Assembly (NCBI GenBank): GCA_028289525.1
Contig: JANQPJ010000093.1
Coordinates: 1 to 38,942 of the forward strand
DNA length: 38,942 nucleotides
Direction: 5' to 3'
Source: Pirellulales bacterium
Lineage (GTDB): Bacteria > Planctomycetota > Planctomycetia > Pirellulales > JAGQOS01
Shown: piece after piece, positions 5,681 through 27,240 of the stretch
How the letters are laid out: each line of letters opens with the position of its first letter
How positions within the stretch are numbered: the first letter of the stretch is position 1
Made by a program: the position numbers and the translations under genes
Notes under the pieces: model-generated
What the model saw: only the letters and a program-made list of their open reading frames with translations
Databases searched by the model: none
Told to the model about the DNA's origin: nothing

Positions 5681-5753
5681 TGGAGGTAGACGGACTCGAA
5701 CCGACGACCCCTGCCTTGCAAAGGCAGTGCTCTCCCAACTGAGCTATACCCCC
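5681..5753 (-). tRNA. tRNA-Ala(TGC)
   Basis: GGGGGTATAGCTCAGTTGGGAGAGCACTGCCTTTGCAAGGCAGGGGTCGTCGGTTCGAGTCCGTCTACCTCCA: D arm, anticodon TGC, TTCGAGTCC T-loop; acceptor stem pairs. Confidence 0.95.
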
Positions 5754-5873
5754 GGGGAATTTGTAGCGATGCTTTTTATCTTGTCAGGTTCGACCAGGAA
5801 AGTCCATGCGTGAAGCAACGTCTGAATGGTATCAGACCGCCTGTTGCTTGGATGGTTTGTTTCGTTCCTCGAC

Positions 5874-6137
5874 TCAATTGTTCTCTGGGGTTTCGTCGGG
5901 GGCTGATTGTCCCGTAAGACGAAAATTGTCGACGGCCCGTTCGGCCGCATGGCCGAATGCTTCGGCAAATTCAAGGCCTTTGACCATGCTCTTGTGGTTC
6001 GTGATTAAGAGCATCTCTTGCTCTTCTTGTTCCATCCAGGTTGCTACGGCGCGAAGCCGGCCTGAGAGACGGTCGAGTCGCTGAATCAAACTCAGCAGCT
6101 TCTGGGGCGAATACGGCTCGATTGGTTTGGCTGGCAT
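5874..6137 (-). CDS. Small hypothetical protein, divergent from the phage-like cassette
   Basis: Start at MPAKPIEPYSPQKLLSLIQRLDRL; helical, acidic C-terminus. The ORF extends upstream to 6227 but the AT-rich N-terminal extension looks non-coding. Confidence 0.5.
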   Translation of the reverse strand: MPAKPIEPYSPQKLLSLIQRLDRLSGRLRAVATWMEQEEQEMLLITNHKSMVKGLEFAEAFGHAAERAVDNFRLTGQSAPDETPENN

Positions 6138-6233
6138 AACGCTATCACCATGGGGCAAATAGAGGTGTTTGTCAATAATGATGCGAGAAGTGGATTGAAA
6201 TAAGATGAAAAATTTTAAAAAAATCATTTACGG

Positions 6234-6261
6234 TTGACTTTTGTATGTATTTATATATACT
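6234..6261 (+). promoter_or_regulatory. Sigma70-type promoter upstream of the phage-like cassette
   Basis: TTGACT (6234-6239), 16-nt spacer, TATACT (6256-6261), in a strongly AT-rich segment 80 nt before the first cassette ORF. Confidence 0.6.
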
Positions 6262-6341
6262 TATTTTCAATTGAATTTAAAAGCGAGGTAAAGAGGGCGG
6301 TTCACGCGTGAACCTGGGGGCAGTGAAGCTGGGAGGAAGGC

Positions 6342-6710
6342 GTGACGATTTGCGGAATTGCTTCAGCGACAAACAGCCCGGATGACTGCCGTTGTCCCGA
6401 GGATCCTTTGGCGGAGCGATGCCTGATGGCAGGGCAAGGCGAACTGTTGCGACGGCTTCAAAATCTGCGTTGGGTAGATGGGAGTGAAGTGGCTGGCGGG
6501 GGGGAGATTCATGCCGAGTGGATTCGATTGGTTTTCGAGCTACAGGCCTCTCGGTTGGCTGCTGAGTGCATGGCGATGGCAGTGGCAATCTTGCGCGTCG
6601 TAACGATGGAGGTGGGCAAGTTGCCTGACACGTGGGAAGTGCAGGAATTGAAAGCGGTCGCAGAGCACGTAACGACAGTTGTCGAGGCAACGCGGGGAGA
6701 TCGGTTATGA
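6342..6710 (+). CDS. Hypothetical protein (first cassette gene)
   Basis: 122-aa ORF, GTG start; ends in an ATGA overlap with the next ORF. Confidence 0.6.
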   Translation: MTICGIASATNSPDDCRCPEDPLAERCLMAGQGELLRRLQNLRWVDGSEVAGGGEIHAEWIRLVFELQASRLAAECMAMAVAILRVVTMEVGKLPDTWEVQELKAVAEHVTTVVEATRGDRL

Positions 6711-7060
6711 ACCGCACCGATTGGTTTTTGGGTCAGCCTAGATTATCAGGCGTGCGAAACGGCAACCACTCCAATGCGTTCGAGCGCAAGAGGGCATGGG
6801 CTGGTGGCGGCTCATCGGTGGACTACTTGCGTGGAGTGCCTGGCTTGTCGACGGCGAAGGCTCGGCTGGCTGCCAGAAAGGATCTTACAGCTTCTCAGGA
6901 GCAGATGTTGACGCGAGAGATTCACGCGGTGTGTGAAATGATTCGTCAGGCTCGCCAGCGGGTTGAGGAGGGGCGGCAAGCGGAAGTCTGTGAGGGATTG
7001 CAAGACGTTGAAGATTGGGATTTGTTCGACCCGTATGTCTTGCTGGAGCAAGGCAACTAA
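6707..7060 (+). CDS. Hypothetical protein
   Basis: MNRTDWFLGQPRLSG...; ATG at 6707 overlaps the preceding TGA, suggesting translational coupling. Confidence 0.6.
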   Translation: MNRTDWFLGQPRLSGVRNGNHSNAFERKRAWAGGGSSVDYLRGVPGLSTAKARLAARKDLTASQEQMLTREIHAVCEMIRQARQRVEEGRQAEVCEGLQDVEDWDLFDPYVLLEQGN

Positions 7061-7134
7061 TTACTGAGAAAGGGGAGCGGACGCCAGCGGTGTTCGCTAA
7101 CCGAGTCCAGCAGACTACGGAATTGAAACAAGTG

Positions 7135-7791
7135 ATGGCAATTGAGACTCCAGTTCGTTGGCAAGCAGGCGATGTGCTGGCGTTTTCTGGTCGAGGGGCC
7201 GTTTCAATGGGAATTAAGCTTGGCACTTGTTCGGCCATTTCGCATGTCGCGGTGGTGGGTTGGACGCCAGGATGGCAGCTACGCAATGTGGCCGCCAGCG
7301 GTGTGGTTCGGATTCCTGAAGACCGGCTTGCCGACTGGAAAAATCAGTACCTCCTTTATGAGAGTACGACCTTGGCGACAGCTCCTTGTGAGATCACCGG
7401 GCGTGTGATTACAGGCGTTCAGGCGCATGAGCCGAATTCGCGGGTGGCAAGATATCGTGGTCGGGTGTGGCTTTATCGGATGACGGCTGCTTGGCGGCGG
7501 GACTTCACGCCGGCTCGAGGAACACGCTTGACAGGCCATCTGTTAGCCCGCATCGGTCAGCAGTATGACGGCTCCGGCGCTATTTTGGCCGGGACGCGTG
7601 TTGTGAAGCATTTATGGGCATGGAGAAAGGTGGACCGCAGTAGTCTGTTTTGTAGTGAGTATCTCGCGGCAGTGTTACAGCACGTGGGGTTATTTCCGAT
7701 TTCCAATGCCAGCAAGGTAACGCCGGCGTCGTTGATTCGCGACCTAATCGCGGCCGAAGTTTACTCCCCAGGCGTCCAGTTGAAAGGTTAG
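7135..7791 (+). CDS. YiiX/permuted NlpC-P60-like cysteine hydrolase
   Basis: GDVLAFSGRGAVSMGIKLGTCSAISHVAVV (His block) then SLFCSEYLAAVLQHVGL (Cys block), the permuted papain-fold order. ATG 7135 (MAIETPVRW) preferred over 7015. Confidence 0.75.
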   Translation: MAIETPVRWQAGDVLAFSGRGAVSMGIKLGTCSAISHVAVVGWTPGWQLRNVAASGVVRIPEDRLADWKNQYLLYESTTLATAPCEITGRVITGVQAHEPNSRVARYRGRVWLYRMTAAWRRDFTPARGTRLTGHLLARIGQQYDGSGAILAGTRVVKHLWAWRKVDRSSLFCSEYLAAVLQHVGLFPISNASKVTPASLIRDLIAAEVYSPGVQLKG

Positions 7792-7795
7792 TCGT

Positions 7796-8371
7796 ATGCA
7801 AGGAATTCACCTGCCAATCTGCCGGGTGGTTTTGTTGTTTGCCTTGGCCGGCGGAGGTTGTGAGAGTGAGGCGGGGCCGCCTTGTGATGGTCCGGAATGT
7901 CCGTATCAACAAGCCGCAACTCCGGCAATTGATTTGCCGTTAGCGATGCGCGAAGCCAACTGGGACACCGGCTCTTGTGTGCATGCGTGTTTGGTCCATG
8001 TGCTGCGCTGGCAAGGACAGTATTCTCTGGCTAACTGGTGGCGGCAACATCACTCTGGCGGCGAGTATGCCGAGCGGTTGAATGCTCGCATGGAAGCCGC
8101 AGGCTTGCGTTATGCCTATACCGATCGTGGAGATGAGAAATTTCTGGAGTGGGCGATGCGGACTCGGCGCGGAGCAGGAGTCACCTTCTGGCCACAGCAT
8201 GCGGTGAATCTTGTGCATCTCGATGAAACGCAGGCCGCGCTGCTGGACAACAACCGCATCGAAACCATTGTTTGGTTGTCGCGCGAGGAATTCATTCGCC
8301 GTTGGCGAGGCTATGGTGGTTGGGCGTGGACGTTGGTCTACGAGCCGCCGCCGCCCCGGCCCTACTACTAA
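7796..8371 (+). CDS. Secreted/lipoprotein papain-like (C39-like) cysteine peptidase candidate
   Basis: Signal peptide with lipobox-like LAGGGC; NWDTGSCVHACLVHVLRWQGQ and AVNLVHLDETQAALLDNN in Cys...His...Asp/Asn order. Confidence 0.6.
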   Translation: MQGIHLPICRVVLLFALAGGGCESEAGPPCDGPECPYQQAATPAIDLPLAMREANWDTGSCVHACLVHVLRWQGQYSLANWWRQHHSGGEYAERLNARMEAAGLRYAYTDRGDEKFLEWAMRTRRGAGVTFWPQHAVNLVHLDETQAALLDNNRIETIVWLSREEFIRRWRGYGGWAWTLVYEPPPPRPYY

Positions 8372-8462
8372 TGCTCAATTTCGTTGGCCAGCGATAGGAT
8401 CGCTATCAAAAGATTCCAGGCAAATTGAAGCCCTGAATTGATTTTGTAAAGGGAGGGGTGTA

Positions 8463-9092
8463 ATGCGTTGCGCTATGCTTGTTCTCGGTTTGTTCGGCCT
8501 TGGGGGTGTTTGCTGGGGCGGTAATTCAGCGGCTTTGGCGGAAGGCCTACAGGACCAGCCCCATCGCGAACGGGTAATCCATTTGCCGGAAGATGGAGGC
8601 ACCTGGTGGGTAACGCTCTGTTTGCCTGTCAACCACCACGCTGATTCCGCCAGTCGCCGGCTGCTGGTTGCCATGTCGACCGAGCCACGTTTGGTGTCGC
8701 TCAAGGCACAATGCAAACAGCATGTCTTTGCAGCCAATGATCCGCTGTTTCGCGCACGTTGGGCAGCTCATGTAGGACGCTTGCCAGCGATTCTGGTGCA
8801 ACAACCAGATGGCAGGACATGCTACAAGGCCAGTGCCGAAAACATTCCGCCAAACGCAGCGGCTTTAGCCGATGAAATTTCCGCCGCAATCGAGAACTGT
8901 CGGCCAAGGCCCCAGCCGACTCCGGCGCCGGCTCCCGTAACCCCAGCACCAACAGTGCGGCCGATTCCCGACATTCGGCCGACGCCGAGCCAGACGAACT
9001 CCGATGGTGGGCTGCTATTGGCGTTGTTGGCCGGCCTGGGAGGGGCTGCTGGAGGGTTGGCGTCGGAATGGAAAAAGTCAGAGGCGGTGTAA
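8463..9092 (+). CDS. Exported protein with possible thioredoxin-like core, Pro-rich linker and Gly-rich C-terminal TM
   Basis: N-terminal signal; RLPAILVQQPDGRTCYKASAENIP resembles the cis-Pro strand of Trx folds (no CxxC); PTPAPAPVTPAP linker; LLLALLAGLGGAAGGLASEW. Confidence 0.55.
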   Translation: MRCAMLVLGLFGLGGVCWGGNSAALAEGLQDQPHRERVIHLPEDGGTWWVTLCLPVNHHADSASRRLLVAMSTEPRLVSLKAQCKQHVFAANDPLFRARWAAHVGRLPAILVQQPDGRTCYKASAENIPPNAAALADEISAAIENCRPRPQPTPAPAPVTPAPTVRPIPDIRPTPSQTNSDGGLLLALLAGLGGAAGGLASEWKKSEAV

Positions 9093-9095
9093 GGG

Positions 9096-9589: not shown

Positions 9590-9894
9590 ACCACGTGGCG
9601 ATTGCGGTCATTGGCTGGGGCTTGGTGATTGGCGTGGGCGAAGTGGTTGCCGGCTTGCCAGCGGTGCCCAGCCCGTCGGCGGTCTGCCAAGACGGAATGT
9701 GTCGCGCCGGGCAGCCAGAGAAACAGGCGGTAACACAGCGTCGCACGCCATTACCGCCTGCGTGGCCTGAGCGGGGGTATGTTGCTGGACAGCCGGTACG
9801 AAATGTTTGGCGGTTTTTGTTTCCGATCCGACGCCAGAGAGCAGGGCAAGGGCTGGAAGTCAACGCAGGAGAAATCCCGTGGCTGACGAATTAA
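9586..9894 (+). CDS. Small exported hypothetical protein
   Basis: ATGA overlap with the upstream gene; signal-like N-terminus MNHVAIAVIGWGLVIGVGEVVAG. Confidence 0.55.
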   Translation: MNHVAIAVIGWGLVIGVGEVVAGLPAVPSPSAVCQDGMCRAGQPEKQAVTQRRTPLPPAWPERGYVAGQPVRNVWRFLFPIRRQRAGQGLEVNAGEIPWLTN

Positions 9895-10283
9895 ACGCCG
9901 CCAGGCTCGATGCTCGCATTGATGATTTGGCCGAACGGACCGATCGCACGGATGAACGTCATGAAAAAACCAGTCGAATGGTGTTTCAAAAATTGGCCGT
10001 GATTGAGCGTCAGGTCGGAAAGGTCGAGCGTCAGTTGGTACGTGTGTCGGCGCAACTCGACTCGGAACAGCGGAGCATCAGGCACCGCTTAGAGAAAATC
10101 GACAGAGAGCAAGCCACGCACGAAGCGATCTTTACCGGTCGCAACGGAGTGGCGGGGTTGTTAGTTCGAACCGATCGGATTGAGCAACACGTGGCCTCCA
10201 GCCGTTGGCTCTTGAGGGCGGTGATTGTCACAGTGATTACCTTGTGTGCTACTTCGGTGGCTCGCGTGTTGTTAACAAGCTAG
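9879..10283 (+). CDS. Coiled-coil protein with C-terminal TM segment, holin/spanin-size
   Basis: GTG 9879 (VADELNAARLDARIDDLAERTDRTDERHEK...) heptad-rich; C-terminal LLRAVIVTVITLCATSVARVLL. Confidence 0.6.
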   Translation: MADELNAARLDARIDDLAERTDRTDERHEKTSRMVFQKLAVIERQVGKVERQLVRVSAQLDSEQRSIRHRLEKIDREQATHEAIFTGRNGVAGLLVRTDRIEQHVASSRWLLRAVIVTVITLCATSVARVLLTS

Positions 10284-10299
10284 AGCGAGTTTTGGTTTG

Positions 10300-10845
10300 A
10301 TGATTCGAGATCGAATCCGCGAGCTGCGTCGCGTGCCGGCTTCTGAGCTGGTTCCACATCCTCGCAACTGGCGAACCCATCCCGACGGTCAGCGCAAAGC
10401 CCTTCAGGCGGTCTTGGCCGAGGTTGGATTCGCTGACGCCTTGTTGGTGCGGGAGTTGGCCGATGGCAGGTTGGGCCTCATTGATGGCCATCTGCGGGCG
10501 GAAACAATTCCTGACATGCAAGTGCCGGTGTTGGTGTTGGACGTTGATGATCGAGAGGCTGAAAAAATACTCGCGACCTACGATCCATTGGCCGCCATGG
10601 CCGAAGCGGATCGTGAGCGTGCGACTGCCTTGCTTGCTGACATCGAGTTTGAGGACGAGAAGCTTGGGCCGCTGTTGGAATCCCAGTTGGCGGCAGAACA
10701 CAGCCAGCCGCCAATGTCGGCAGAGCATGGAAGATTGGATGAAGTATTTCAAGTGCTGGTGGAGTGTGAGGATGAGGCACAGCAGCGGGAGCTATTCGAA
10801 CGACTTGCTGCGGAAGGCCATGTCTGTCGCGTGCTCACACTTTAG
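10300..10845 (+). CDS. ParB/Srx-like nuclease-domain protein (phage type)
   Basis: VPASELVPHPRNWRTHPDGQRKALQAVLAEVGFADALLVRELADGRLGLIDGHLRAETIPDMQVPVLVLDVDDREAEKILATYDPL. Confidence 0.88.
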   Translation: MIRDRIRELRRVPASELVPHPRNWRTHPDGQRKALQAVLAEVGFADALLVRELADGRLGLIDGHLRAETIPDMQVPVLVLDVDDREAEKILATYDPLAAMAEADRERATALLADIEFEDEKLGPLLESQLAAEHSQPPMSAEHGRLDEVFQVLVECEDEAQQRELFERLAAEGHVCRVLTL

Positions 10846-10870: not shown

Positions 10871-11977
10871 ATGCCAACGATTGAAGCAACTGTGCAATGT
10901 GAAGTGCACAATTCGTTTCGGGTGCAGCAGGTAGCCGGAATGTTTGGGCTAAAAGTAGATGGGCAAAACAAAGAGACGTTTGTGGTCGACGTGCCTGATG
11001 TTCAGGAATCGTGGCGGATCGGGGCCATTGTGGGGCCGTCTGGTAGTGGCAAGTCGACCGTTGCACGTTGTGCTTTTGGCGAGGCGGTCTTCGATCGGCA
11101 TGCTTGGCCTGCCGAGCGGGCGATGATCGACTGCCTGGGAGAGCGGCCGGTAAAAGAGGTCACTCAGACGTTAACAGCCGTGGGATTTGGCAGTCCGCCA
11201 GCGTGGCTGCGTCCGTATCACGTGCTGAGCAATGGAGAACAATTTCGTGCTGATCTGGCCAGAGCCTTGCTTGCCGAGACGCCACTGTTGGTTTTTGACG
11301 AGTTCACCAGCGTAGTCGACCGGACCGTGGCGAAAACAGGGTCGGCCGCATTGGCTAGGGCATTGCGGCGAGGGCAGCTCGACAAACGTTTTGTGGCGGT
11401 AACCTGTCACTACGACGTACTGGAGTGGTTGGAACCAGATTGGGTGGTCGACATGGCGCAGCTTGAGCTGCAACGGAGGCGTCTTCGGCGACCAGAAATC
11501 CGGCTCCGCATTGTTCCTTGCCATCACTCGGCGTGGCGTTTGTTTCGAAGACATCATTATTTAAGCCATTCAGTGAATAAAGCTTCGCATTGCTATCTGG
11601 CGCTTTGGGGGCAACGGCCAGTTGCATTTTGTGCCGTGCTGGCGATGCCAGGGCGACGTGGACGTTGGCGTATCTCGCGGATCGTGGTGCTGCCGGACTT
11701 TCAAGGCATTGGAATCGCAACGAGGTTTTTGGATGCGATTGCCGAGCAATATGCGAGCGAGTCGAAACGGGTAAATATCACGACATCGCATCCGGCCATG
11801 ATCGCCAGCTTGCGGCGCTCAGGACGCTGGCGTCAGGTCGGCGTCAAAAAAACAGGACACTGCGTCCAACGCGGTGCGCGAACTGGCGTGTTGAATTCGT
11901 ATGTGAAAAGTGTCTCCCAAGGGCGAGCCGTCGTGTCGCTGGAATATCTGAAGGCAGCCGCCTGTGGAGGTCGGTGA
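10871..11977 (+). CDS. ABC-type ATPase fused to a GNAT-like acetyltransferase domain (COG2401-like)
   Basis: Walker A GPSGSGKST, signature LSNGEQFRADLARALL, Walker B LLVFDEFTSVVD; C-terminal RRHHYLSHSVNKASHCYLALWGQRPVAFCAVL...RISRIVVLPDFQGIGIATRFLDAIAE. Confidence 0.85.
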   Translation: MPTIEATVQCEVHNSFRVQQVAGMFGLKVDGQNKETFVVDVPDVQESWRIGAIVGPSGSGKSTVARCAFGEAVFDRHAWPAERAMIDCLGERPVKEVTQTLTAVGFGSPPAWLRPYHVLSNGEQFRADLARALLAETPLLVFDEFTSVVDRTVAKTGSAALARALRRGQLDKRFVAVTCHYDVLEWLEPDWVVDMAQLELQRRRLRRPEIRLRIVPCHHSAWRLFRRHHYLSHSVNKASHCYLALWGQRPVAFCAVLAMPGRRGRWRISRIVVLPDFQGIGIATRFLDAIAEQYASESKRVNITTSHPAMIASLRRSGRWRQVGVKKTGHCVQRGARTGVLNSYVKSVSQGRAVVSLEYLKAAACGGR

Positions 11978-12044: not shown

Positions 12045-12479
12045 TTGGCAGACAATGAAATGCTCGCAGGTGATTCAGCAGGCAGCCACTCCCAGCCCGA
12101 GCGAGCATCGGGCGAGAGGGCGAGTGCGCCACTCGACTCACAGCAATCGTGTTGGGTTATTCCTGAAGGCGCTAGAACGGTCGTCCCAGCCAGCTTGGTG
12201 CGCATCGTGGTCGAACGCCGCGAAGAGGTGTGTCCGAAAACCGGTGTCAAAACGGAAGTTTATGCCTACGACGCTCGGACGAGAATTTCGGCTGCCCAGG
12301 CGTTGGTCGCCATGCACCGGCAAATTCAAACCGAACAGACCAATGGACAGCGAGATGAGTCACCCTCGATCGCCGATTCTAAGCAACGCCAACGCCGACT
12401 TCTTGCTCTCGCTGAACAACTGCGAACTGCAGGCATGGATGGCGACATTGACTCCCTGGGAGCGGACTCTGGTGCTTGA
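12045..12479 (+). CDS. Hypothetical; position suggests a terminase small subunit-like protein
   Basis: Protein-like C-terminal half (VRIVVERREEVCPKTGVKTEVYAYDARTRISAAQALVAMHRQIQ...RQRRLLALAEQLR); TTG 12045 or ATG 12060 start; just upstream of TerL. Confidence 0.5.
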   Translation: MADNEMLAGDSAGSHSQPERASGERASAPLDSQQSCWVIPEGARTVVPASLVRIVVERREEVCPKTGVKTEVYAYDARTRISAAQALVAMHRQIQTEQTNGQRDESPSIADSKQRQRRLLALAEQLRTAGMDGDIDSLGADSGA

Positions 12480-13896
12480 AGACCTGTGTCAATTGGCCAG
12501 TCAATCGGATTGCCCAAGCAGTCCGGCAGAGTTGGGAGCCCGGGCTTGGGGACGTGTGTGGCGGATGGCCAGGCATCTGACGTTGCTGAACCGAACGCTG
12601 GTCGACTTGGCGCAACGGCGAATCAAACGTTTGTTGATCATGATGCCGCCTCGCCACGGAAAGTCGGTGCTGGCCAGCCAGTTTTTTCCCGTTTGGTATT
12701 TAGGAATGCACCCCGACCATCGTGTGTTGCTGGCAAGCTACGAAGCCACTTTTGCCGCCAGCTGGGGCCGCAAGGCCCGGGACTTGATGGAACAGTGGGG
12801 GCCTGAATTGTTCGGAGTCCGGGTGCGGGCAGATTCCTCGGCCGCTAATTCTTGGAATTTACGAAATCATTTTGGGGGGATGAGCACGGCGGGTGTTGGT
12901 GGGCCGATCACAGGGCAGGGGGCTGATTTGCTAATTGTCGACGACCCCGTCAAAAACGCCGAGCAGGCTTTGAGCGAAACCTATCGTGAAAAAGCTTGGG
13001 ATTGGTGGACATCGACCGCCTTTACCCGACTCGAGCCGAATGCCGTAGCGATTGTCGTACAAACTCGCTGGCATCAGGACGATTTGGCCGGACGTATTCG
13101 TGCCGAACAACAGGACGAAGCCTGGCGCGAAATTCGTTTTCCTGCGATCGCCGAACAGCACGATTGCTTAGGACGCAAGCCGGGCGAGGCGCTTTGGCCT
13201 GAACGCTTTTCGGTTGAGAAGCTGCGCCAGGTTGAACGGTCGATGCCTGTCCATTGGTGGCGATCGCTCTACCAACAGCAGCCAGGAAAGCACGAAAGTG
13301 TTTTGTGGCCGCTGGAATATTTTCAAGGCGACGATCTCTGGTTCGATGAGTGGCCCAGCGACTTGCAGCTGCGGGTGATGACGCTTGATCCTTCCAAAGG
13401 GCAGGGGACACGCCGGTCCGATTACTCGGCCTATGTGTTGTTAGCAGTTCAGGCGGGAGGGCTGGTTTGGGTCGAAGCAGACTTGTCAAACAGCCGGCCG
13501 CCGACCCAATTGGTCGACGACGGAGTTGCACTCTACAAGCGGTTTCGTCCTGAAGTGTTTCAAATTGAAGGCAATGCCTGGCAAGACCTGTTGGGCGGTA
13601 TGTTTGCCGAGGAGTTCCGAAAGCAAGGGCTGCTGCATGTGCGTGTCGGGGCCATGCACAACACGATTCGCAAGGAGCTAAGAATCGAAACTCTAGATGG
13701 CTTGCTCCGTGCCCGGCAAATCCGGTTTCGGCGAACGCCAGGCACAGAGCTTTTGGTCTCACAACTGCGCGATTTCCCGGCCGCACGTCATGACGACGGA
13801 CCGGACGCTCTCGAGATGGCTGTGCGAACCGCGAGAGATTGGTGGGATCAAGAGCCAAGCGAGGCGACGTCGCAGTTGCCGCACTTCGGATTTTAG
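12343..13896 (+). CDS. Phage terminase large subunit
   Basis: Walker A MMPPRHGKSVLASQF, Walker B LLIVDDPVKN, nuclease-type MTLDPSKGQG and DDGPDALEMAV. The open frame upstream to 11590 overlaps the ABC/GNAT gene and is not counted. Confidence 0.95.
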   Translation: MDSEMSHPRSPILSNANADFLLSLNNCELQAWMATLTPWERTLVLEDLCQLASQSDCPSSPAELGARAWGRVWRMARHLTLLNRTLVDLAQRRIKRLLIMMPPRHGKSVLASQFFPVWYLGMHPDHRVLLASYEATFAASWGRKARDLMEQWGPELFGVRVRADSSAANSWNLRNHFGGMSTAGVGGPITGQGADLLIVDDPVKNAEQALSETYREKAWDWWTSTAFTRLEPNAVAIVVQTRWHQDDLAGRIRAEQQDEAWREIRFPAIAEQHDCLGRKPGEALWPERFSVEKLRQVERSMPVHWWRSLYQQQPGKHESVLWPLEYFQGDDLWFDEWPSDLQLRVMTLDPSKGQGTRRSDYSAYVLLAVQAGGLVWVEADLSNSRPPTQLVDDGVALYKRFRPEVFQIEGNAWQDLLGGMFAEEFRKQGLLHVRVGAMHNTIRKELRIETLDGLLRARQIRFRRTPGTELLVSQLRDFPAARHDDGPDALEMAVRTARDWWDQEPSEATSQLPHFGF

Positions 13897-13930: not shown

Positions 13931-15346
13931 ATGAAAGGCATTTCGAGCATGGGCAATCTGGAAACGGCATTAGCAGAGAACGAGCAGTTGCGCGAACAAC
14001 TTTTGCATGCGGAGAACGAGATGCTGCGCGAGTCGTTGGAATGTTATACACGCTATGTCGATCCAACCGACGCCTTGCGTGGGCCCGACGGACTCTGGTG
14101 GTCGCCGATCGGAAGTTCAAACGGGAGTGTGCCTGAGCAGACCTTCTGTTGGAGCGAAGCTCAGTTGCTCGAAGCCCGTCGGGTAGGCCGGCAGTTGGAA
14201 CGCTCGAATCCATTCGCGATCAACGGCCATGAAAACCGCATCAACTACATTGTCGCAACCGGCCACACTTACAAAGCCGTGCGAAAGCCGGGAAGTCAAG
14301 TGAGCGACGAACTGTTACGCACGGTTCAGGAGACATTAGACGACTTCGTGTGTGAGAACCGATGGCAGCAACGGCAGCAAGAGATTGTGCGCCGCCGTGA
14401 TCGAGATGGTGAAGCGTTTCTGCGGCTGTTTCTAGCGCCGGATGGCAAGGTGCGCGTCCGTTTTGTCGAGCCGGATCAGATCAACTGTCCTCCGGAGCTT
14501 ACTGGAAACCAAGCGGCAACGTTTGGCATTGAGACCGATCCAGACGACGTAGAAACGGTCGAGCGGTACTGGGTGGATGGTCGGCCCGTTTCGGCGGCGG
14601 AAATTCAACATCGAAAGCACGGGGTCGACGGCAATGTCAAGCGTGGCGTCCCGCTGTTTTATCCCGTTCGCAATAACCTTTGGCGAGCCGAGAAGTTGCT
14701 GGCCAACATGTCGACGGTGGCCGATGTTCAGACGGCGATTGCCATGATTCGGCGACACGATCGGGCAACACGCTCGGCGGCCGAAACCTTTCGGCAAGCG
14801 ACGGCCGACACGACACAAAACGCTTCGTCCGGCGATCCTTCGTTTCTACGGCGCTACTCGCCGGGAACAATTCTCGATTCGCCGAAGTCGATTGAATACG
14901 AATTTCCCGCGGCTGGGCTTGATGCCAGTCGTTATGTCCTGGTGTTGCAGGCAATGTTGCGGGCTGTGGCCTCGCGCCTGGTGATTCCAGAGTTCATGCT
15001 GACTAGCGATGCCAGTAACGCCAGTTACTCCAGCACGCTAGTGGCCGAGGGGCCAGCGGTGAAGATGTTTCAGCGTTGGCAGGCCGACATGCGCACAGAC
15101 GACTTGGCCATCATGCAGATGGTCGTCGACGCTGCGGAAAGGGCAGGGCGGTTGCCTCACGGGGTTAGCCGGCTAGTAGCGATTCAGGTTGGCCTGCCGC
15201 GTGTTGCTACGCGAGATGAAGTTGCCGAGGCCAGGGTTAATCGAATCTATCACCGGTTGGGCGTGAAATCAAAGCAGACGATCGCGGCCGAACTGGGGCT
15301 GGATTACGACCAGGAACGTCGCAATTTGGACGTCGGTGCTGTGTGA
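13931..15346 (+). CDS. Phage portal protein
   Basis: Position after TerL; NRINYIVATGHTYKAV, RRRDRDGEAFLRLF, VRFVEPDQINCP, HRKHGVDGNVKRGVPLFYPVRNNLWRAEKLL, MLTSDASNASYSSTLVAEGPAVKMFQRWQ. Confidence 0.9.
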   Translation: MKGISSMGNLETALAENEQLREQLLHAENEMLRESLECYTRYVDPTDALRGPDGLWWSPIGSSNGSVPEQTFCWSEAQLLEARRVGRQLERSNPFAINGHENRINYIVATGHTYKAVRKPGSQVSDELLRTVQETLDDFVCENRWQQRQQEIVRRRDRDGEAFLRLFLAPDGKVRVRFVEPDQINCPPELTGNQAATFGIETDPDDVETVERYWVDGRPVSAAEIQHRKHGVDGNVKRGVPLFYPVRNNLWRAEKLLANMSTVADVQTAIAMIRRHDRATRSAAETFRQATADTTQNASSGDPSFLRRYSPGTILDSPKSIEYEFPAAGLDASRYVLVLQAMLRAVASRLVIPEFMLTSDASNASYSSTLVAEGPAVKMFQRWQADMRTDDLAIMQMVVDAAERAGRLPHGVSRLVAIQVGLPRVATRDEVAEARVNRIYHRLGVKSKQTIAAELGLDYDQERRNLDVGAV

Positions 15347-15426
15347 ACGCTGTAGGGCATGATCGTTAAGTCTTCAAAGGTCGTGCAGGCAATTTGCCTG
15401 GGATTTGGACGAGGGAGGATAGTAAT

Positions 15427-16449
15427 TTGGATACATTGAATCCATTCGACGAGAAAATAGTCGAATACGTTAGCTCGCGTGGCGCGAAGATCGGGGTCGA
15501 CCGCGAAACCGGCGTCATTCGTGGTGTAAAAATCTTAGGACTGCACAGCAAGAATGACCGTGTCTATCCAGGGGCCACACTCGAGCGGGCCATCGGCTTG
15601 TACGAAGGAGTGCGGGTTAACGTCAACCATCCAGATGGTCCTCCTCACGCGCCAAGAAACTATCAGGATCGGCTTGGCGTGATCCGCAACGTCACTCGAA
15701 AAGAAGACGGTCTGTATGGCGATTTCTATTTCAACCCCCGGCATCTGCTGGCGGAACAGCTTATTTGGGATGCAGAGAACGCCCCTGGGCAGGTCGGCTT
15801 TTCGCATAACGTGACTGCCCGAACCTCGCGAAGCAAAGGGCAGACCGTGATTGATGAGATCGTGCAGGTGCGATCGGTCGATCTCGTGGCCGATCCGGCA
15901 ACGACGCGAGGTTTGTTCGAGCACCAGGCGTGTGGCGAACACAGCCCACGTGCAGAAATTTGGGACAACGTGCGCCATAGCTGGGTTCCTTTTACCCCAT
16001 TATCAACAGCGAAGGAGGAGGCGATGTCGTTAACTTTGGAAACGCTCAAGCAAGAGCACCTTGAACTTGTTGAAGCGATCAAGCAAGAAGCGTTGCGCGA
16101 GCACGAGCAGTCGGAGGCCGTATGTCAACGGGCCGCGCACTATGCACAACTGCGTGAAGAAAATCAGCAACTCAAACAACAGCAGCAGCGAGTCGAGTGG
16201 CTGGCCGCTGTGGAGCAAGCAATTCAAGAGGCTCATTTGCCTGAGATGCTCTGCACCGAGACATTTCGGCGCCAATGTGAAGCTGCCGAGAATCGAGCTG
16301 TGCTGAGCCAGTTGATTGAAGCACGGCAAGAAGACGCTCGGTTGTGGGCCGGTTCAGCGAAACCAGTGGCGGTTGCCCAACATCGCGACCGCGGGCTGGA
16401 CTCGGAAGAGGCCTTTGATCCGGCTCGTTTTGCCGTAGCAATTCGTTAG
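15427..16449 (+). CDS. Prohead protease with C-terminal scaffold-like coiled coil
   Basis: VNHPDGPPHAPRNYQDRLGVIRNV...VGFSHNVTART...VRSVDLVADPATTRGLF protease-type motifs; Gln/Glu-rich coiled-coil C-terminus. TTG 15427 has GGGAGG upstream. Confidence 0.8.
   Translation: MDTLNPFDEKIVEYVSSRGAKIGVDRETGVIRGVKILGLHSKNDRVYPGATLERAIGLYEGVRVNVNHPDGPPHAPRNYQDRLGVIRNVTRKEDGLYGDFYFNPRHLLAEQLIWDAENAPGQVGFSHNVTARTSRSKGQTVIDEIVQVRSVDLVADPATTRGLFEHQACGEHSPRAEIWDNVRHSWVPFTPLSTAKEEAMSLTLETLKQEHLELVEAIKQEALREHEQSEAVCQRAAHYAQLREENQQLKQQQQRVEWLAAVEQAIQEAHLPEMLCTETFRRQCEAAENRAVLSQLIEARQEDARLWAGSAKPVAVAQHRDRGLDSEEAFDPARFAVAIR
16024..16449 (+). CDS. Nested in-frame scaffold protein (internal start)
   Basis: AAGGAGG followed by GAGGCG-type spacing and ATG 16024 in the same frame as the protease ORF; product MSLTLETLKQEHLELVEAIKQEALREHEQ... 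is coiled-coil-like. Confidence 0.65.
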   Translation: MSLTLETLKQEHLELVEAIKQEALREHEQSEAVCQRAAHYAQLREENQQLKQQQQRVEWLAAVEQAIQEAHLPEMLCTETFRRQCEAAENRAVLSQLIEARQEDARLWAGSAKPVAVAQHRDRGLDSEEAFDPARFAVAIR

Positions 16450-16519: not shown

Positions 16520-17002
16520 ATGGCAAATCAAATGCGATGGCGCTACGGAGACACCAAGCCAATTCAGCTGGCCGTTGATTCAGGAACGGTCATTGAGATT
16601 GGGGATCTTGTCTTTCTAGATGCCGACGATGGTAAGCCGGCGGCCGACTTGGCCTATGGCGCCTCGTTGGATGCGACTCAAGAGTCGCTGCACGATGTTT
16701 TTGCTGGCGTTGCCATGCAGGCCTCGTCGGCTGGCGACACGAGCGATATTCGAATCGCCACCAATGGGATTTTCGAGTTCGACCAAGCTCAGGCGAGCGT
16801 GCAAGTCGGAGATCGGGTAGGCGTCGATGACAATGCGGCGGGCGACACGCTGTTGAATCAACAGGTAATTGGCGTGCCCAGTTCGGCTCCTGAGCGGTCG
16901 ATCGGAACTTGCGCCAAGGCGGCCACCAACGCCACCAAGATCTTAATCGCGATCAACAGCACAGTGATGAACGATGGTCCCCAGGCGATCGCGACCTCGT
17001 AG
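16520..17002 (+). CDS. Capsid decoration/stabilisation-like protein
   Basis: 160-aa beta-rich ORF (VIEIGDLVFLDADDGKPAADL...VQVGDRVGVDDNAAGDTLL) between scaffold and MCP. Confidence 0.65.
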   Translation: MANQMRWRYGDTKPIQLAVDSGTVIEIGDLVFLDADDGKPAADLAYGASLDATQESLHDVFAGVAMQASSAGDTSDIRIATNGIFEFDQAQASVQVGDRVGVDDNAAGDTLLNQQVIGVPSSAPERSIGTCAKAATNATKILIAINSTVMNDGPQAIATS

Positions 17003-19325: not shown

Positions 19326-19337
19326 GTGCTTGAAACC

Positions 19338-21161
19338 ATGCCAGAAGCTACCAACCAATTCGACAACGCCACTGGCCTGACCCTGGAGCAATCCGAGGTT
19401 GCCGCCGGCGTGCTGCGCAACGCGGAGATCGTGGCCGGCCAGTTCCAGGCGATTGGCCGGACGACCAGCGGTGACGTGCTCAGTGGCCTAGACGTTGAGT
19501 CGGTGTCTAGCCTCGACGGCGTGATTGCCAGCAAGCCGGCCGGATCAACCATCCGAATCCAGGTGAGCAGCGACGGCGTCACATTCACCAACGCTTTCGG
19601 CGAAGACTGCACGAACACCGGGGCGTTTACTCTTGATGGCGTGAACGACTATCTCGGCATCGACGCGCCATTTCGGACCGCCGACCAATCTGGGGCGGTG
19701 TCAATGTGGGTGCGGTATACGCCAGGCGGCGGAAGCTGGATCTGGATGAACGGGGCGTGGACAAACAACGGCAATCGAGTCGAGACCTGGATTGTCGGTG
19801 CCGCTGGGTCGCGATCAATTGACCTGCGGGTAACCAACAGCACGACGATCAATATTGGAAATCGGGTCAGGACACCCCCTGGCTCGATCGTCGCCGGGCG
19901 CTGGCATCACGTCATCTGGATTTCGACAGGCTCCAGCTACGTAATCTTGATTGATGGCGTCCTTCAGCCGCTGTCGGTCATCAGTGGCAGCAACAACGGC
20001 TCTTGGTTTAGCGATTGCGTGAACCTAGACCGCTGGACGATCGGGGCGCAGCGCAAAAACTTCAAGACACAGTTTTATTTCGGTGGCGACATCGACGATG
20101 TGCGAGTGTTTAGTCAGGCTCCGACGACCGAGCAAGCCAAGGACTTCTTCTTTCGCCACAAGACGCCCCCGGGCCAGGTAAATCGCTGGCGATTCGATGA
20201 GATCGACACGCCGGCCGTGGGGCAAACACCTGACGCGGTCGGTACGGCACACCTTACGATCGTGGGCGCTCAGCACGAGACGGACTGGCGAGAGTTGCCA
20301 GTGTTCGGCGAAGCGGTTGGCACGCTCGACACCCTCGCGCTTGATGGCGTGAACGACTACGTCGACATATCACATTCCTCGCTAAATATCGTTGGCGATC
20401 TGACCGTCTCGGCGTGGATCAATCCACGGAGATTTCCGACCTCAGGCCATGCCATGGCCGTCAACCAATGGTCTGCGTCGACCGGCACCAATTTTTACAT
20501 TGCGTTCTTGGAGACGTTTGGTTGGGATTTATGCGTTCGATCTGGCAACGGAGGAAGCGGCGGTTCGACGATTTTGCATACTCCGATCCCGCTGAACGCT
20601 TGGACCCACGTCGTTTTGCGCCGCGAAGGCACGACACTTACTTTGTTTGTCGACGGCCAGTTGATCGACTCGACGGACATCACTGGCTTCCTGGGCGGGA
20701 GCGCGAGCGCTACTTGGATAGGCCGGTTTAGCAGTGGTACCTATCACTTCGATGGCCTGCTGGCGAACGTGTCCGTGTGGGCGAGCGGTCTCAGTGATAG
20801 CCAAGTACAAACGCTGTCTAGCCAGGGCCACCGAGGTGGCTTGCCAACGCCTTTGGGCGAGTGGAGAGCCGATGAAGGCGCCGGCACGATACTCAATAAC
20901 CACGGCACGGCCAGCAACCAGGGCTCGATTGTCGGCGCAACCTGGACCCAGCGGATCGACCGACCGGCACCGAGCGCCGAGAGCTGGTCGATCGACGTCA
21001 GCGGGGCAGGGCTGACCAATAGCGCGTTTTGGCGTGTGCTGATGATGGCCGTCGCCGACGATCGCACGGCCGCGCTCGATGAACTGAGCGTGGTCTGCGA
21101 GACTTCAGTTGGTTTGCCGCTATCGGTGCTGGTGAGCGGGCATTACGCGGGGGCAGTCTGA
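19338..21161 (+). CDS. Protein with two LamG/concanavalin-like lectin domains
   Basis: Duplicated TLDGVNDYLGI / ALDGVNDYVDI units with RWHHVIWI...LIDGVLQ and AWTHVVLRREGTTLTLFVDGQLIDS, GDIDDVRVFSQA and GLLANVSVWASGLS. Confidence 0.88.
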   Translation: MPEATNQFDNATGLTLEQSEVAAGVLRNAEIVAGQFQAIGRTTSGDVLSGLDVESVSSLDGVIASKPAGSTIRIQVSSDGVTFTNAFGEDCTNTGAFTLDGVNDYLGIDAPFRTADQSGAVSMWVRYTPGGGSWIWMNGAWTNNGNRVETWIVGAAGSRSIDLRVTNSTTINIGNRVRTPPGSIVAGRWHHVIWISTGSSYVILIDGVLQPLSVISGSNNGSWFSDCVNLDRWTIGAQRKNFKTQFYFGGDIDDVRVFSQAPTTEQAKDFFFRHKTPPGQVNRWRFDEIDTPAVGQTPDAVGTAHLTIVGAQHETDWRELPVFGEAVGTLDTLALDGVNDYVDISHSSLNIVGDLTVSAWINPRRFPTSGHAMAVNQWSASTGTNFYIAFLETFGWDLCVRSGNGGSGGSTILHTPIPLNAWTHVVLRREGTTLTLFVDGQLIDSTDITGFLGGSASATWIGRFSSGTYHFDGLLANVSVWASGLSDSQVQTLSSQGHRGGLPTPLGEWRADEGAGTILNNHGTASNQGSIVGATWTQRIDRPAPSAESWSIDVSGAGLTNSAFWRVLMMAVADDRTAALDELSVVCETSVGLPLSVLVSGHYAGAV

Positions 21162-22808: not shown

Positions 22809-22863
22809 AGCTTCGGGCTGGTCTAGATAGAGCAGGTTATCGGTGAGAGAAAGGTGAGGAATC

Positions 22864-23265
22864 ATGAGTTTAGAGCGTGCGATTCACCGGCATTGGACTG
22901 CTTGGCGTCCGTTAACCTCGCTTGTGCCAGCCGATCGGGTGCGTACTGGTTGGATTCTGGCGACTGAAAGCGGAGAAGCGCCTTTCCCTTATGTAACTAT
23001 CGAGCGCGCCGGGCGTTTGCAAACCCAGTATTTGGCCGAAGGAGTGCAGCTGCAAACAATCACGATACGTTTTAACCTCTGGACGCGTGAATTGGTCGAG
23101 GGCAAACGAATTGCTGCCGAGATCGAATGTCGCTTTGGCCGGCAAGAGTTTAGCGATGGTTGTGTGCGCGTGCTCGACATGCAGCTTAGCGGGCATAACG
23201 AGACGTTTCAGGAAGACGGAATATGGCATTTGGAACTTGAGTATTTAACCCGTAGTGAATCCTGA
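22864..23265 (+). CDS. Tail-completion-like protein
   Basis: 133 aa; FPYVTIERAGRLQTQYLAEGVQLQTITIRFNLWTRELVEGKRIAAEIECRF resembles short head-tail terminator proteins. Confidence 0.6.
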   Translation: MSLERAIHRHWTAWRPLTSLVPADRVRTGWILATESGEAPFPYVTIERAGRLQTQYLAEGVQLQTITIRFNLWTRELVEGKRIAAEIECRFGRQEFSDGCVRVLDMQLSGHNETFQEDGIWHLELEYLTRSES

Positions 23266-23273
23266 GGAATACT

Positions 23274-23792
23274 ATGAGCGACACCCTATCCCTGGACATC
23301 CAAGCCAGCATTCAATGGTTGTTTGAAGAAACGCTTGACCTTTCCACGGTTTCCGATCATTCGAAAGTGGACTTTCTGCGCAGTGTGTCAGATGGCACTG
23401 CCGACGGACAGGCAGACAAAATTTGGCACGATATTCGAACCGTTGCATCCGGGGCAAACGATGACCTCGATTTGACCAGCCTGTCGCAAACGATTCATAG
23501 CAGTGTGATCACAATCAATTTGGCCAAGGTCAAGGCGCTGTTTATCGTCAACACGGCGACCGCAGCCGGAGAACGCCTTTATCTCGATTCGTCGGTCGCA
23601 GGGGCGCTGTTGGGGCCATTCAACGGAAATGCGACGAGTCGGATCGAGGTGCCGGCCGATAGTCCATTGTTGTTGACCAATTTAATTGCTGGCTGGGCAG
23701 TTGCTAATGGCACAAGCGATGTGCTACGGGTTACCAACGATGGGACCGGTAACATCGACTACAAAATTGTGATTGTGGGCACCTCGGCGTAA
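23274..23792 (+). CDS. Phage structural hypothetical protein
   Basis: 172-aa ORF in the structural operon; beta-rich. Confidence 0.6.
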   Translation: MSDTLSLDIQASIQWLFEETLDLSTVSDHSKVDFLRSVSDGTADGQADKIWHDIRTVASGANDDLDLTSLSQTIHSSVITINLAKVKALFIVNTATAAGERLYLDSSVAGALLGPFNGNATSRIEVPADSPLLLTNLIAGWAVANGTSDVLRVTNDGTGNIDYKIVIVGTSA

Positions 23793-23822
23793 TTCACGCG
23801 AATTCAATATGAGAAACATGGC

Positions 23823-24212
23823 ATGGCGACCAAGAGTGGCAAAGACGGCAGAGTGGAGATCGGGCCGACGGCTGTGGCTTCGATCACGGCTTGGCAGTTG
23901 ACGATTCAGGCAAGCAGTTTGGCCTATACCAGTTCGGCCACCGGTGGCGCGGTAGCTCGCTTGCCTGGGGCCAAGGATGCCAGGGGCAGCATCGTCTTTC
24001 AACTTGATTTCACCAGCCCGATTACCGAATCGCTCGAGGAAGGAACACTCGTCACGCTGAAATTATATTTGGATCGCACACGGTTCTATACAGTTCCTGC
24101 GGTCATCGACGCAATCGAGTTCGAGCCGATCGACGTCGTCATGGGGGATCCCATCGGCGGCAAGATTATCTTTTCCGGAGCCGGGCCGATTACCAGTCCG
24201 GTGTTCGCGTAA
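23823..24212 (+). CDS. Tail tube-like protein
   Basis: 129 aa; VEIGPTAVASITAWQLTIQAS...SIVFQLDFTSPITESLEEGTLVTLKLYLD...YTVPAVIDAIEFEPIDVVMGDPIGGKIIFSGAGPI. Confidence 0.6.
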   Translation: MATKSGKDGRVEIGPTAVASITAWQLTIQASSLAYTSSATGGAVARLPGAKDARGSIVFQLDFTSPITESLEEGTLVTLKLYLDRTRFYTVPAVIDAIEFEPIDVVMGDPIGGKIIFSGAGPITSPVFA

Positions 24213-24266
24213 GGCAGCGGCAAGGTAAGGGCGTTGCGATTAATTAAGTAGAATTCATGACGGAAG

Positions 24267-25097
24267 GTGGCTCAGGTGGCGATCGATTTTGAAGAATTAC
24301 AAGGATCGCCCAGGCTTCGGATTGGACAAGGCGAGAGCATCGCACAGCGTGTCTTTCGGGTTGCCTGGGACGACTGGCAGGCGTTTAGTGAGTCACTGGT
24401 CGGTGGCTGGCGAGAAACCGGTGGTGCCTATACTTATCTGTCGCCGATTGCTTTTCCAGGGCTTTCGCAATTTTATGTCGACGACCTGGAGATCGATCCA
24501 TTCGATCCCGGCAACCCTGTTGGCGATCAGGTAGAGTCCGTGGCTCGCGGCACCAATATCTATCCAGCAGCCGGCGCACGTGTCACGGCAACCTATCGCG
24601 CTCGGGGCACTGCCCGACTCAGGGATCAGCCACCCATCCAGGAAGGCACGTTTCTGACCTATCAAGCCCATGTCGGGGTCGATCAGTCCGTGGCGCCAGG
24701 CAGAGATTGGGTATGGGAAAGTGATACGGCAAAATTGCCTGGCGACATGAATCTTAGTCTGTTGGTGCCGATCGGCACCTTTTCGCTCACGTGGCACATG
24801 GTGGCCCGCCCTCCCTGGCAAGCAATACGTCAGCTACGAGGCCAGATCAACAACACGCCATTTCTGGATGTTGCAGCGGAACGGGTGCTCTTTCTCGGCG
24901 CGCGTGTGCGAAGAGAGTTCGAGTTTCTCGACCAGTTGAGTCGATGGGTCGTTACTTATGAGTTTGCTGAGCATGTGAGTTCGTGGAACCAACTCCGGCG
25001 TCCCGGCGTCGGGTTTGCCAGGATTGAAGACGCGGTGAGTGGGGCGACTCCCTACGAAAGCGGTAACTTCGAGGCGCTCTTTCAGTTTGGTTCGTAA
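24267..25097 (+). CDS. Phage structural hypothetical protein
   Basis: 276-aa ORF, GTG start; co-directional. Confidence 0.6.
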   Translation: MAQVAIDFEELQGSPRLRIGQGESIAQRVFRVAWDDWQAFSESLVGGWRETGGAYTYLSPIAFPGLSQFYVDDLEIDPFDPGNPVGDQVESVARGTNIYPAAGARVTATYRARGTARLRDQPPIQEGTFLTYQAHVGVDQSVAPGRDWVWESDTAKLPGDMNLSLLVPIGTFSLTWHMVARPPWQAIRQLRGQINNTPFLDVAAERVLFLGARVRREFEFLDQLSRWVVTYEFAEHVSSWNQLRRPGVGFARIEDAVSGATPYESGNFEALFQFGS

Positions 25098-25110
25098 GGA
25101 GGCATTCAAA

Positions 25111-26460
25111 ATGCCAGTTTCTAGAGATCGCAACCAGCGAACGCTGGATGAGCATGACACGATCCAGCCTTTGGAGATCAATGCTGTTCCACCAGTTGAA
25201 CTGCAGCAGACGCCACTAGGAATGAGCGTACGGCTTGCTCATGCCCCTGGCTTGAAGCACGTGGTGCTCAAAGAAGATGTTCCGGCAAGCGCCGCCGACA
25301 AGACCTCGGCCGTGTTAGGCTATGATCCTGTTGCTGGTCAGTTTGTCGACACGGTCGATAGTCCGGCCTTTAGCAACCAAGTGTGCGCCAAAACGGCCGA
25401 TCCACAAGATGCCGGGCTTTATCTCAAACATGAGCGGCATGTTTGCTATTACGATCCCCAAAGCGACCAATACCTTCCTGTGGCGGGGCCGGCATGGCAC
25501 CTCGGGAAGACCGACGTGGCCATCGCGGCAGGGGGGGCGGGAACGGTTTCGATTTGGAAAGCCGATCTCGACGACGAGGATGTCGACAGCGACACCAGCG
25601 AGGCGATTGATTCAGGATGGGATGTCACGGCCACCGACTTCTTCGGACGCGGACTGCCAGGCGACACCCTGGTGATGGTCTTTTTTCATCATCAGTCTCG
25701 CTCATGGTATGTCTTGCGAGCAGCCAGCGACGTGATTCGATTCAAACTGATAGGCAGCCTGCAGGCAAACGGGACGGCGCTTGGCCAGCAAGTGACTTGG
25801 AACGGCTCCGCCTATGTGACTGTTGGCGCTGAGATTGGCCTGGTCGATCCAACTGGGTTGTTAGGGCCGGCCGCTCTAGGGGCCGTGGGCTGGGCAGTGC
25901 GCAGCCCAGACCGTGGCAAGGTCACCCTGAATCTGCCCGATCCGCCTGGAGACGCAGTGGAGTATGATTGTTACGAAATGGTGTCACTGGAAGGACAGGC
26001 ACGGTGGATTCGGGCTACGCTTGTCGAAGATCTCGGGCAAACCACCGTAGGCATGGCAGCCGCCACGGTCGTTGAGCATTGGGGACATCCAGCCATGGGC
26101 GATGCGCCTGACATGAGTCCCGGAGGAGTTACAGTAGTCGATGCCACGGGATTGTTCGCGCGGGCTCTGGCAGGCGCAGACTGTCAGGCAGTCCTCTACG
26201 AGCAGGACAATCAATATCACTTGGTGCACTGTGAACAACAGACCACGATGTATTTGGGGCAGATCGACCAAGCCGGCGGACTTGCTCATACCGACTTGAC
26301 GGTCCCGGTTGATGGCCTCACGGCTGTGAATGGACAGGCTCAGGTTGCCACGACACTTACGGCCAGCAACACGTTCTCTCTGGCTGCCAACGACAATGCA
26401 AAGTGTTTGGTCATTTGGAACGATTCCGAGCAGACTTGGGAGTTAGTCCAAGTCGCCTAA
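25111..26460 (+). CDS. Phage structural/fibre-like hypothetical protein (last cassette gene)
   Basis: AAGGAGG SD then ATG 25111 (MPVSRDRNQRTLDEHDT...); repetitive beta-rich sequence. Confidence 0.65.
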   Translation: MPVSRDRNQRTLDEHDTIQPLEINAVPPVELQQTPLGMSVRLAHAPGLKHVVLKEDVPASAADKTSAVLGYDPVAGQFVDTVDSPAFSNQVCAKTADPQDAGLYLKHERHVCYYDPQSDQYLPVAGPAWHLGKTDVAIAAGGAGTVSIWKADLDDEDVDSDTSEAIDSGWDVTATDFFGRGLPGDTLVMVFFHHQSRSWYVLRAASDVIRFKLIGSLQANGTALGQQVTWNGSAYVTVGAEIGLVDPTGLLGPAALGAVGWAVRSPDRGKVTLNLPDPPGDAVEYDCYEMVSLEGQARWIRATLVEDLGQTTVGMAAATVVEHWGHPAMGDAPDMSPGGVTVVDATGLFARALAGADCQAVLYEQDNQYHLVHCEQQTTMYLGQIDQAGGLAHTDLTVPVDGLTAVNGQAQVATTLTASNTFSLAANDNAKCLVIWNDSEQTWELVQVA

Positions 26461-26557
26461 AGCAAGTTGCTTTTTACCGTAGCGGACGTGACCAGCGTTT
26501 TCGCCGAGGTTTTCCGACGAAACGTCAATGCGCATTTTGGTAGTTTGCTCTAAACCT
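26458..26557 (+). repeat. Dispersed ~95-bp repeat, copy A
   Basis: TAAAGCAA...ACCAGCGTTTTCGCCGAGGTTTTCCGACGAAAC...TTTGCTCTAA; begins on the stop codon of the 25111-26460 gene. Confidence 0.8.
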
Positions 26558-26700
26558 GGAAACGGATAAGAAATCAGGTGTCCTAGCGATTCGAAAGAGC
26601 CATGACAGACAGGTGTCACTCGGTCGACCTAGGAATGGGTTAGAGCAAAATAACTTGCTCGCATTGGGTGTCGAAATGCACGCCTTTGGGGGGTGATTTC

Positions 26701-26955
26701 TGGATGGTGGAAGAGGTTAATAACGAAATGAGTGAGCAAACACACGTTGTCCATTGGGTCCATTTTTTTTCAGGAACACGTTTCTTGGGATCGCTCCCTC
26801 ATGTGCTCAGCAAACAGACAGCGCAGGCGTTTGTTGAAAGCTATAACCGCATCAACGGTCAAACAGGCCGGCGGGCTGAAATTGAGCAGCAAGAGATCCC
26901 GGTTCCGAAGCGACCATATCGGCTGCCTCACGCCTTCCAGCGGCCTGGCCATTAG
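26701..26955 (+). CDS. Small hypothetical protein
   Basis: MVEEVNNEMSEQTHVVHWVHFFSGTRFLGSLPHVLSKQTAQAFVESYNRINGQTG; plausible composition; start uncertain. Confidence 0.5.
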   Translation, partial: WMVEEVNNEMSEQTHVVHWVHFFSGTRFLGSLPHVLSKQTAQAFVESYNRINGQTGRRAEIEQQEIPVPKRPYRLPHAFQRPGH

Positions 26956-27050
26956 AGCGAGGCGTTCTTTACCATCGCGCACGTAACAAGCGTTTTCGCC
27001 AAGGTTTTCCGACGAAACATGGCTACGAAATGATTCGAAATTGCTCGAAT
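26953..27050 (+). repeat. Dispersed ~95-bp repeat, copy B
   Basis: TAGAGCGAGGCGTTCTTTACCATCGCGCACG...AAGCGTTTTCGCCAAGGTTTTCCGACGAAAC...TTGCTCGAA; begins on the stop codon. Confidence 0.85.
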
Positions 27051-27166
27051 GCGTGGGGAAGAGTTTGCCAGGGATGCGATGCCATCATCCAGGCGAGGGC
27101 GATGCCTCGATAGGTGGAGGGCGAGAATGTCTTAGCTTCTGCTTTCAGAGGAGCCAGCAGAAGAAG

Positions 27167-27240
27167 TGGGTGTGCGAGGATTCGAACCTCGGACCTCGGC
27201 CTTATCAGGGCCGCGCTCTAACCAACTGAGCTACACACCC
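27167..27240 (-). tRNA. tRNA-Ile(GAT)
   Basis: GGGTGTGTAGCTCAGTTGGTTAGAGCGCGGCCCTGATAAGGCCGAGGTCCGAGGTTCGAATCCTCGCACACCCA; full cloverleaf, anticodon GAT. Confidence 0.96.

Follow-up and report, generated by a model that had tools for sequence, protein, structure and literature searches.

A probable domesticated, gene-transfer-agent-like capsid locus between the tRNA-Ile and tRNA-Ala genes of a Pirellulales bacterium

How does a block of capsid genes come to lie between the two spacer tRNA genes of a bacterial rRNA locus, and does it belong to a virus or to the host? The question is raised by contig JANQPJ010000093.1 of a Pirellulales bacterium (GCA_028289525.1), analysed here over its whole 38,942 nucleotides (the window), which is one contig from a 425-contig metagenome-assembled genome (MAG) of 4.04 Mb and 95.5% completeness. 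The minus-strand order of tRNA-Ile, 21.4 kb, tRNA-Ala, about 4 kb and 23S, given in an original prediction made from the letters alone, is confirmed by ARAGORN and Rfam calls. The capsid-encoding element that it placed between the tRNAs is likewise recovered by Pfam, PHROG and Foldseek matches, and includes terminase, lambda-type portal, cement, HK97-like major capsid protein (MCP), head-completion and tail-tube genes. These capsid genes all lie on the plus strand between 10297 and 26460, whereas the tRNAs are on the minus strand. Rather than a recently acquired virus, the block seems to be an old locus passed down with the host, and with a probability of about 0.68 it would be a domesticated, gene-transfer-agent (GTA)-like capsid-and-packaging locus of Pirellulales that one family has relocated to the site between tRNA-Ile and tRNA-Ala. 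This reading draws on features of the sequence: a gene set conserved in content and order, a copy number close to one, family-congruent inheritance, purifying selection, the lack of recognisable integrase or replication genes, two intact modules and the relocation. Particle formation, DNA cargo, delivery and an egress role of the upstream genes would be its expected consequences.

The tRNA pair and the rRNA genes in relatives

In 16 of the 20 loci from order-mates (Pirellulales), tRNA-Ile and tRNA-Ala lie no more than 300 bp apart on one strand, with G011 as an additional case (G### denotes a sampled genome and C### a contig, G000 being the window's genome and f1 its family). In about 15 genomes the divergent neighbour of tRNA-Ile is a homologue of the redoxin gene found to the right of the block. 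Furthermore, G022 reads redoxin-Ile-Ala-GGDEF-23S, an empty site with the flanks of the window and no block, and redoxin-Ile-Ala-23S is kept in G003, G006 and G011. The proposal that the two tRNAs were formerly adjacent and are now parted by the capsid block therefore holds, as the pair is adjacent in at least 16 relatives, usually with redoxin, rather than at unrelated loci.

The sole other sampled genome in the window's family, G001 (MAG HKST-UBA20), belongs to a second genus. Its contig C422 carries tRNA-Ala followed by homologues of window open reading frames (ORFs) 5874, 7015, 7796 and 8463, C312 carries 23S-GGDEF and the 4349 homologue, and C67 holds subsequent element genes as far as the MCP. 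That two genera with MCPs 76% identical share the arrangement speaks against a chimeric contig. As read from these genomes, the move of the capsid locus to its place between the two tRNAs occurred in one family. The parting of the tRNAs is by itself not special, since they are also apart without capsid genes in G014/G030 and in G018. On G018:C21 (L398, 985-17243) the 16 kb between them is occupied by efflux, GH95 and dehydrogenase genes and is free of capsid genes; this separation is an independent event.

It had also been proposed that the element broke up a 16S-Ile-Ala-23S operon, but this does not stand. Wherever 16S was located in relatives it is distant from Ile-Ala, by 50 kb in G013 and G017 and by megabases in G007 and G024, so the separation of 16S predates the insertion of the block. 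The 16S gene is already unlinked in the order, and the block parted only Ile from Ala, in one family. An Ile-Ala-23S remnant, with 23S in relatives located by DNA search, is present in some lineages (G003, G006, G011, G022) and gone in others; a search for 16S in the MAG of the window found none. Unlinked rRNA genes in Planctomycetes have been described (Brewer et al., 2020, as cited in PMC7825169). The present case is similar in that 16S is apart from 23S, and Ile-Ala here may remain with 23S; it differs in also having an insertion between the two spacer tRNAs. As such, the history of the rRNA locus is settled: 16S left first, and Ile and Ala were later split by the capsid locus, in one family.

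Inheritance and modules in Pirellulales

Related loci are widespread in the order. The MCP is found in 134 of 297 Pirellulales genomes (about 45%; 71 of 122 genera) and the portal in 130 (70 genera), nearly always as a single copy, and MCP matches are fewer and weaker in the more distant members of the phylum sampled outside the order. Hosts include the cultured Botrimarina colliarenosi, Bythopirellula polymerisocia and Aeoliella straminimaris. The recurring gene order is ParB, ABC-ATPase/GNAT, terminase, portal, protease, cement, MCP, neck and tail tube. For the 78 genomes having both MCP and portal, host-family labels change 17 times on the MCP tree and 15 times on the portal tree, against a minimum of 15 for 16 groups and about 49 for shuffled labels (0 of 200 shuffles as low), and family f7 (24 genomes) forms one group in both trees. 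The locus thus appears to be inherited vertically within host families, as a GTA would be. Similarly, the ratio of nonsynonymous to synonymous substitution rates (dN/dS) is 0.03-0.15 in close pairs, which points to intact capsid and packaging genes maintained by purifying selection, another mark of a GTA. No host flank common to resident loci across families was found except element-associated genes, and chromosomal position is therefore not conserved between families.

The locus consists of a packaging module (ParB-ABC/GNAT-TerL-portal) and a head module (protease-cement-MCP-neck-tail tube). In 71 of 92 decidable genomes, portal and MCP follow the expected order at a distance of 1.0-6.1 kb. 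In the other roughly 21 the modules occupy separate contigs with plenty of sequence to spare, differ in strand or have their order reversed, and 17 more genomes are undecidable owing to contig ends. G166, flagged as separated, was left out of the count because its gap is just 7.2 kb in the same orientation. In the cases inspected gene by gene the break falls between portal and protease, G006 excepted, and both modules remain intact after separation. Separation is seen within one contig in G006 (one chromosome), G034, G072, G127, G054 and G106. G006 (Planctomycetales bacterium 10988; L037, L052, L363) has the permuted order protease-MCP-...-ParB-TerL, with the portal 63 kb from the rest of the locus on the same chromosome. 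An excisable prophage could not persist with its modules unlinked or permuted; the contiguous genome that excision requires is retained in the window's own copy.

Competing explanations

An ordinary temperate prophage integrated at tRNA-Ile/tRNA-Ala, with the order-wide copies as host-restricted prophages of one phage family, is unlikely. The gene order of the block is phage-like, a tRNA stands at the border, IMG/VR lists MCP relatives and G004 holds a related true prophage. Against this, the 20-kb cluster regions of relatives contain no tRNA, the MCP and portal trees are congruent with host family, the locus separates into two modules, and neither the integrase nor the att sites of a temperate prophage were found. 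A motif scan of 823 ORFs from resident regions, with the prophage as positive control, gave no integrase, and Pfam and PHROG scans recognised no integrase, replication or lysogeny genes among the window ORFs. The locus therefore seems to lack these genes, as a GTA would. A search for exact repeats of at least 12 nt common to both flanks found none at the boundaries, in agreement with the earlier remark that no att duplication was spotted; those shared were a 13-mer off the boundaries, a 12-mer within the element and CCAACTGAGCTA, the D-arm of both tRNAs. With no att repeat, no integrase and an order-wide, family-congruent locus that is sited elsewhere in relatives, the idea that a mobile, phage-like element integrated at a tRNA is not upheld.

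The true prophage, on G004:C10 (L055, L022, L056), encodes a tyrosine integrase and a DnaB helicase and has head genes related to the resident locus; a resident-type locus is present in G004 too, on C130. This prophage and the block are related in their terminase, portal, protease, MCP, neck and tail genes, whereas ParB and ABC-GNAT genes were not detected with the prophage. The window's terminase is a mosaic, its nuclease half matching all relatives and its ATPase half being nearer to the G004:C10 type. The locus has therefore probably exchanged parts, whether domains or genes, with phages. A search of 50,697 phage records with the MCP gave no match.

Several points weigh against a domesticated, GTA-like locus. 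The ATPase half of the window's terminase differs from that of the other resident copies, and the true prophage relative together with the 211 IMG/VR contigs that encode MCP relatives makes phage exchange possible. No tape-measure-sized gene was found in the block, and the check for an integrase consisted of the motif scan and of Pfam searches with selected genes. Many of the different-contig separations rest on draft assemblies. About half of the sampled Pirellulales are without MCP and portal, which implies frequent loss or a range patchier than that of the alphaproteobacterial agent RcGTA.

That the conserved capsid system serves not DNA transfer but some other purpose, as a container or a killing particle, is improbable. 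The missing tape measure, lectin-like proteins and unusual upstream peptidases would suit it, but terminase and portal are kept, with catalytic-type residues invariant in the TerL alignment, and encapsulin-type containers, HK97-fold shells, have neither. A defective prophage remnant undergoing decay is very improbable: integrase, replication and tape-measure genes are missing, but the genes are intact across families under purifying selection, which strongly disfavours decay, and are retained in near-single copy across 71 genera.

Equally improbable is an assembly misjoin through a dispersed repeat, two copies of which fall precisely in the interval from the last element gene to tRNA-Ile and in which many contigs terminate, because the left junction (tRNA-Ala plus element genes) recurs in G001:C422, G001:C312 has 23S-GGDEF-4349, and a join made at random, with about 119 repeat sites to choose from, would seldom put tRNA-Ile with redoxin in the expected orientation. 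The repeat core, CGTTTTCGCCGAGGTTTTCCGACGAAA, occurs in 119 copies genome-wide in G000, frequently at contig ends, and in none in a reversed control. Recombination between such copies, as at the right junction, may have moved the block. Composition is alike in the block (GC 56.4%, GC at third codon positions (GC3) 0.62) and its flanks (GC 55.5%, GC3 0.65).

Features of the window and known systems

The coordinates of the features are collected in Table 1. The tRNA-Ala to 23S interval measures 3.95 kb and, as predicted, holds other genes, one for a GGDEF protein and one for a membrane protein. Ahead of the packaging module, Pfam gave no match for the proteins at 7060-7791 and 7796-8371, and the sole match in a PADLOC scan of the upstream genes was a weak one of LmuB to the coiled-coil protein. 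In seven genomes (G039, G024, G002, G013, G034, G035, G022) an endonuclease/exonuclease/phosphatase-like gene recurs upstream of ParB, and secreted peptidase genes (papain-, trypsin- and subtilisin-like as judged by inspection) are likewise found repeatedly ahead of the packaging module. Various phages encode relatives of the ABC/GNAT protein, at about 40% identity. The protein at 24267-25097 had no significant fold match in the PDB. Stops apparently inside the terminase and portal frames of G001 were dismissed, as they lie upstream of both genes.

Table 1. Annotated features of the 38,942-nucleotide window, in order of position
Position	Strand	Feature	Basis
1-1729	-	23S rRNA, 5' part, 1729 nt, truncated at contig end	Rfam RF02541, 1412 bits
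2465-4012	-	GGDEF protein between 23S and tRNA-Ala, ancestral neighbour	Pfam PF00990; same site in G022, G001:C312
4349-5647	-	Membrane protein, weakly MauE-like, adjoins tRNA-Ala; in both f1 genera	
5680-5753	-	tRNA-Ala(TGC), left edge of inserted block	ARAGORN, Rfam
5874-6227	-	117-aa gene, left edge	Same site in G001:C422, 61% identity over 94 aa
6234-6261	+	Sigma-70-like promoter TTGACT-16-TATACT, directed into block	Consensus match only
7060-7791	+	Papain-like (NlpC/P60-like by inspection) protein, possible egress function	Same-cluster homologues G001 57%, G006 35%
7796-8371	+	Probable secreted cysteine peptidase-like protein	G001 homologue 64%; assigned by inspection
8463-9092	+	Signal-peptide protein	G001 homologue 60%
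9807-10283	+	Coiled-coil protein, C-terminal transmembrane segment, holin-like by architecture	G001 homologue; inspection
10297-10845	+	ParB-like protein, opens packaging module	PHROG 620/723; conserved in 17 regions
10871-11977	+	ABC-ATPase fused to GNAT domain	PHROG 11143, E 2e-108; conserved
12343-13896	+	Large terminase, intact	PF03237/PF17289, PHROG 38; ATPase half unlike other resident terminases
13937-15346	+	Portal protein	PF05136; alignment
15394-16449	+	Probable head-maturation protease, opens head module	Conserved position; PHROG matches weak
16520-17002	+	Cement/decoration protein	PF09956
17024-18190	+	Major capsid protein (HK97-like)	PF25209, E 3e-20
19326-21161	+	Laminin-G lectin-like structural protein	PF13385
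22146-22808	+	Head completion protein	PF05521, slightly under curated cut-off
22864-23265	+	Tail terminator-like protein	PHROG 78, weak
23274-23792	+	Conserved head-module protein	PHROG 22694, E 2e-23; 53 homologous loci
23823-24212	+	Tail tube protein	AlphaFold model; Foldseek matches: R4C tail tube, RcGTA neck/tail
24267-25097	+	Conserved virion-like protein	Foldseek: uncharacterised Caudovirales proteins only
25039-26460	+	Fibre-like protein, block's last gene	Weak homologues, same position
26458-26523	+	Dispersed repeat, first copy	Between last block gene and tRNA-Ile
26953-27018	+	Dispersed repeat, second copy, beside tRNA-Ile	
27166-27240	-	tRNA-Ile(GAT), right edge of inserted block	ARAGORN, Rfam
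27578-29527	+	Redoxin/AhpC-TSA protein, ancestral tRNA-Ile neighbour	Pfam; about 15 relatives, 41-53% identity

GTAs are known chiefly from Alphaproteobacteria plus a few other groups. RcGTA resembles the block in being a host-inherited capsid and packaging cluster with genes at more than one chromosomal locus, and in a neck/tail fold similar to the tail tube modelled here. The block differs in its phylum, in the lack of a detected tape measure and in the ParB and ABC/GNAT genes ahead of the terminase. MCP and portal profiles found no sequence relative among PDB chains, the RcGTA particle (6tba/6toa) included. By sequence the block thus appears to fall outside the RcGTA lineage, with a likeness only at the level of fold, in the tail tube. 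RcGTA genes are spread over at least five loci (PMC7947584), and the unlinked modules of Pirellulales are accordingly a state compatible with a GTA and not with an excisable prophage. Caulobacter GTAs have no apparent tails although tail proteins are encoded (PMC9632790).

If the locus is a GTA, the host would express the inherited genes and a small HK97-type head with a portal would assemble, into which the terminase would package cellular DNA. A neck and a short tail-tube/fibre assembly would then be added, and release could be aided by the upstream peptidase-like and holin-like genes. The odds are about even for the fuller proposal of an order-wide Pirellulales GTA, unrelated in sequence to known GTAs, the first in Planctomycetota, with modules repeatedly separated between portal and protease yet jointly functional. 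No report of a Planctomycetota GTA was found in the literature searched, whose reach stopped short of preprints and most subscription papers.

Planctomycetota have large genomes and an unusual cell biology. If the GTA-like reading is true, a capsid locus would have been independently domesticated in this phylum and vertically kept in nearly half of the sampled Pirellulales, and its cultured hosts make the reading testable. The recurrent separation of the modules would be a natural experiment on what a capsid system needs once excision ceases to matter.

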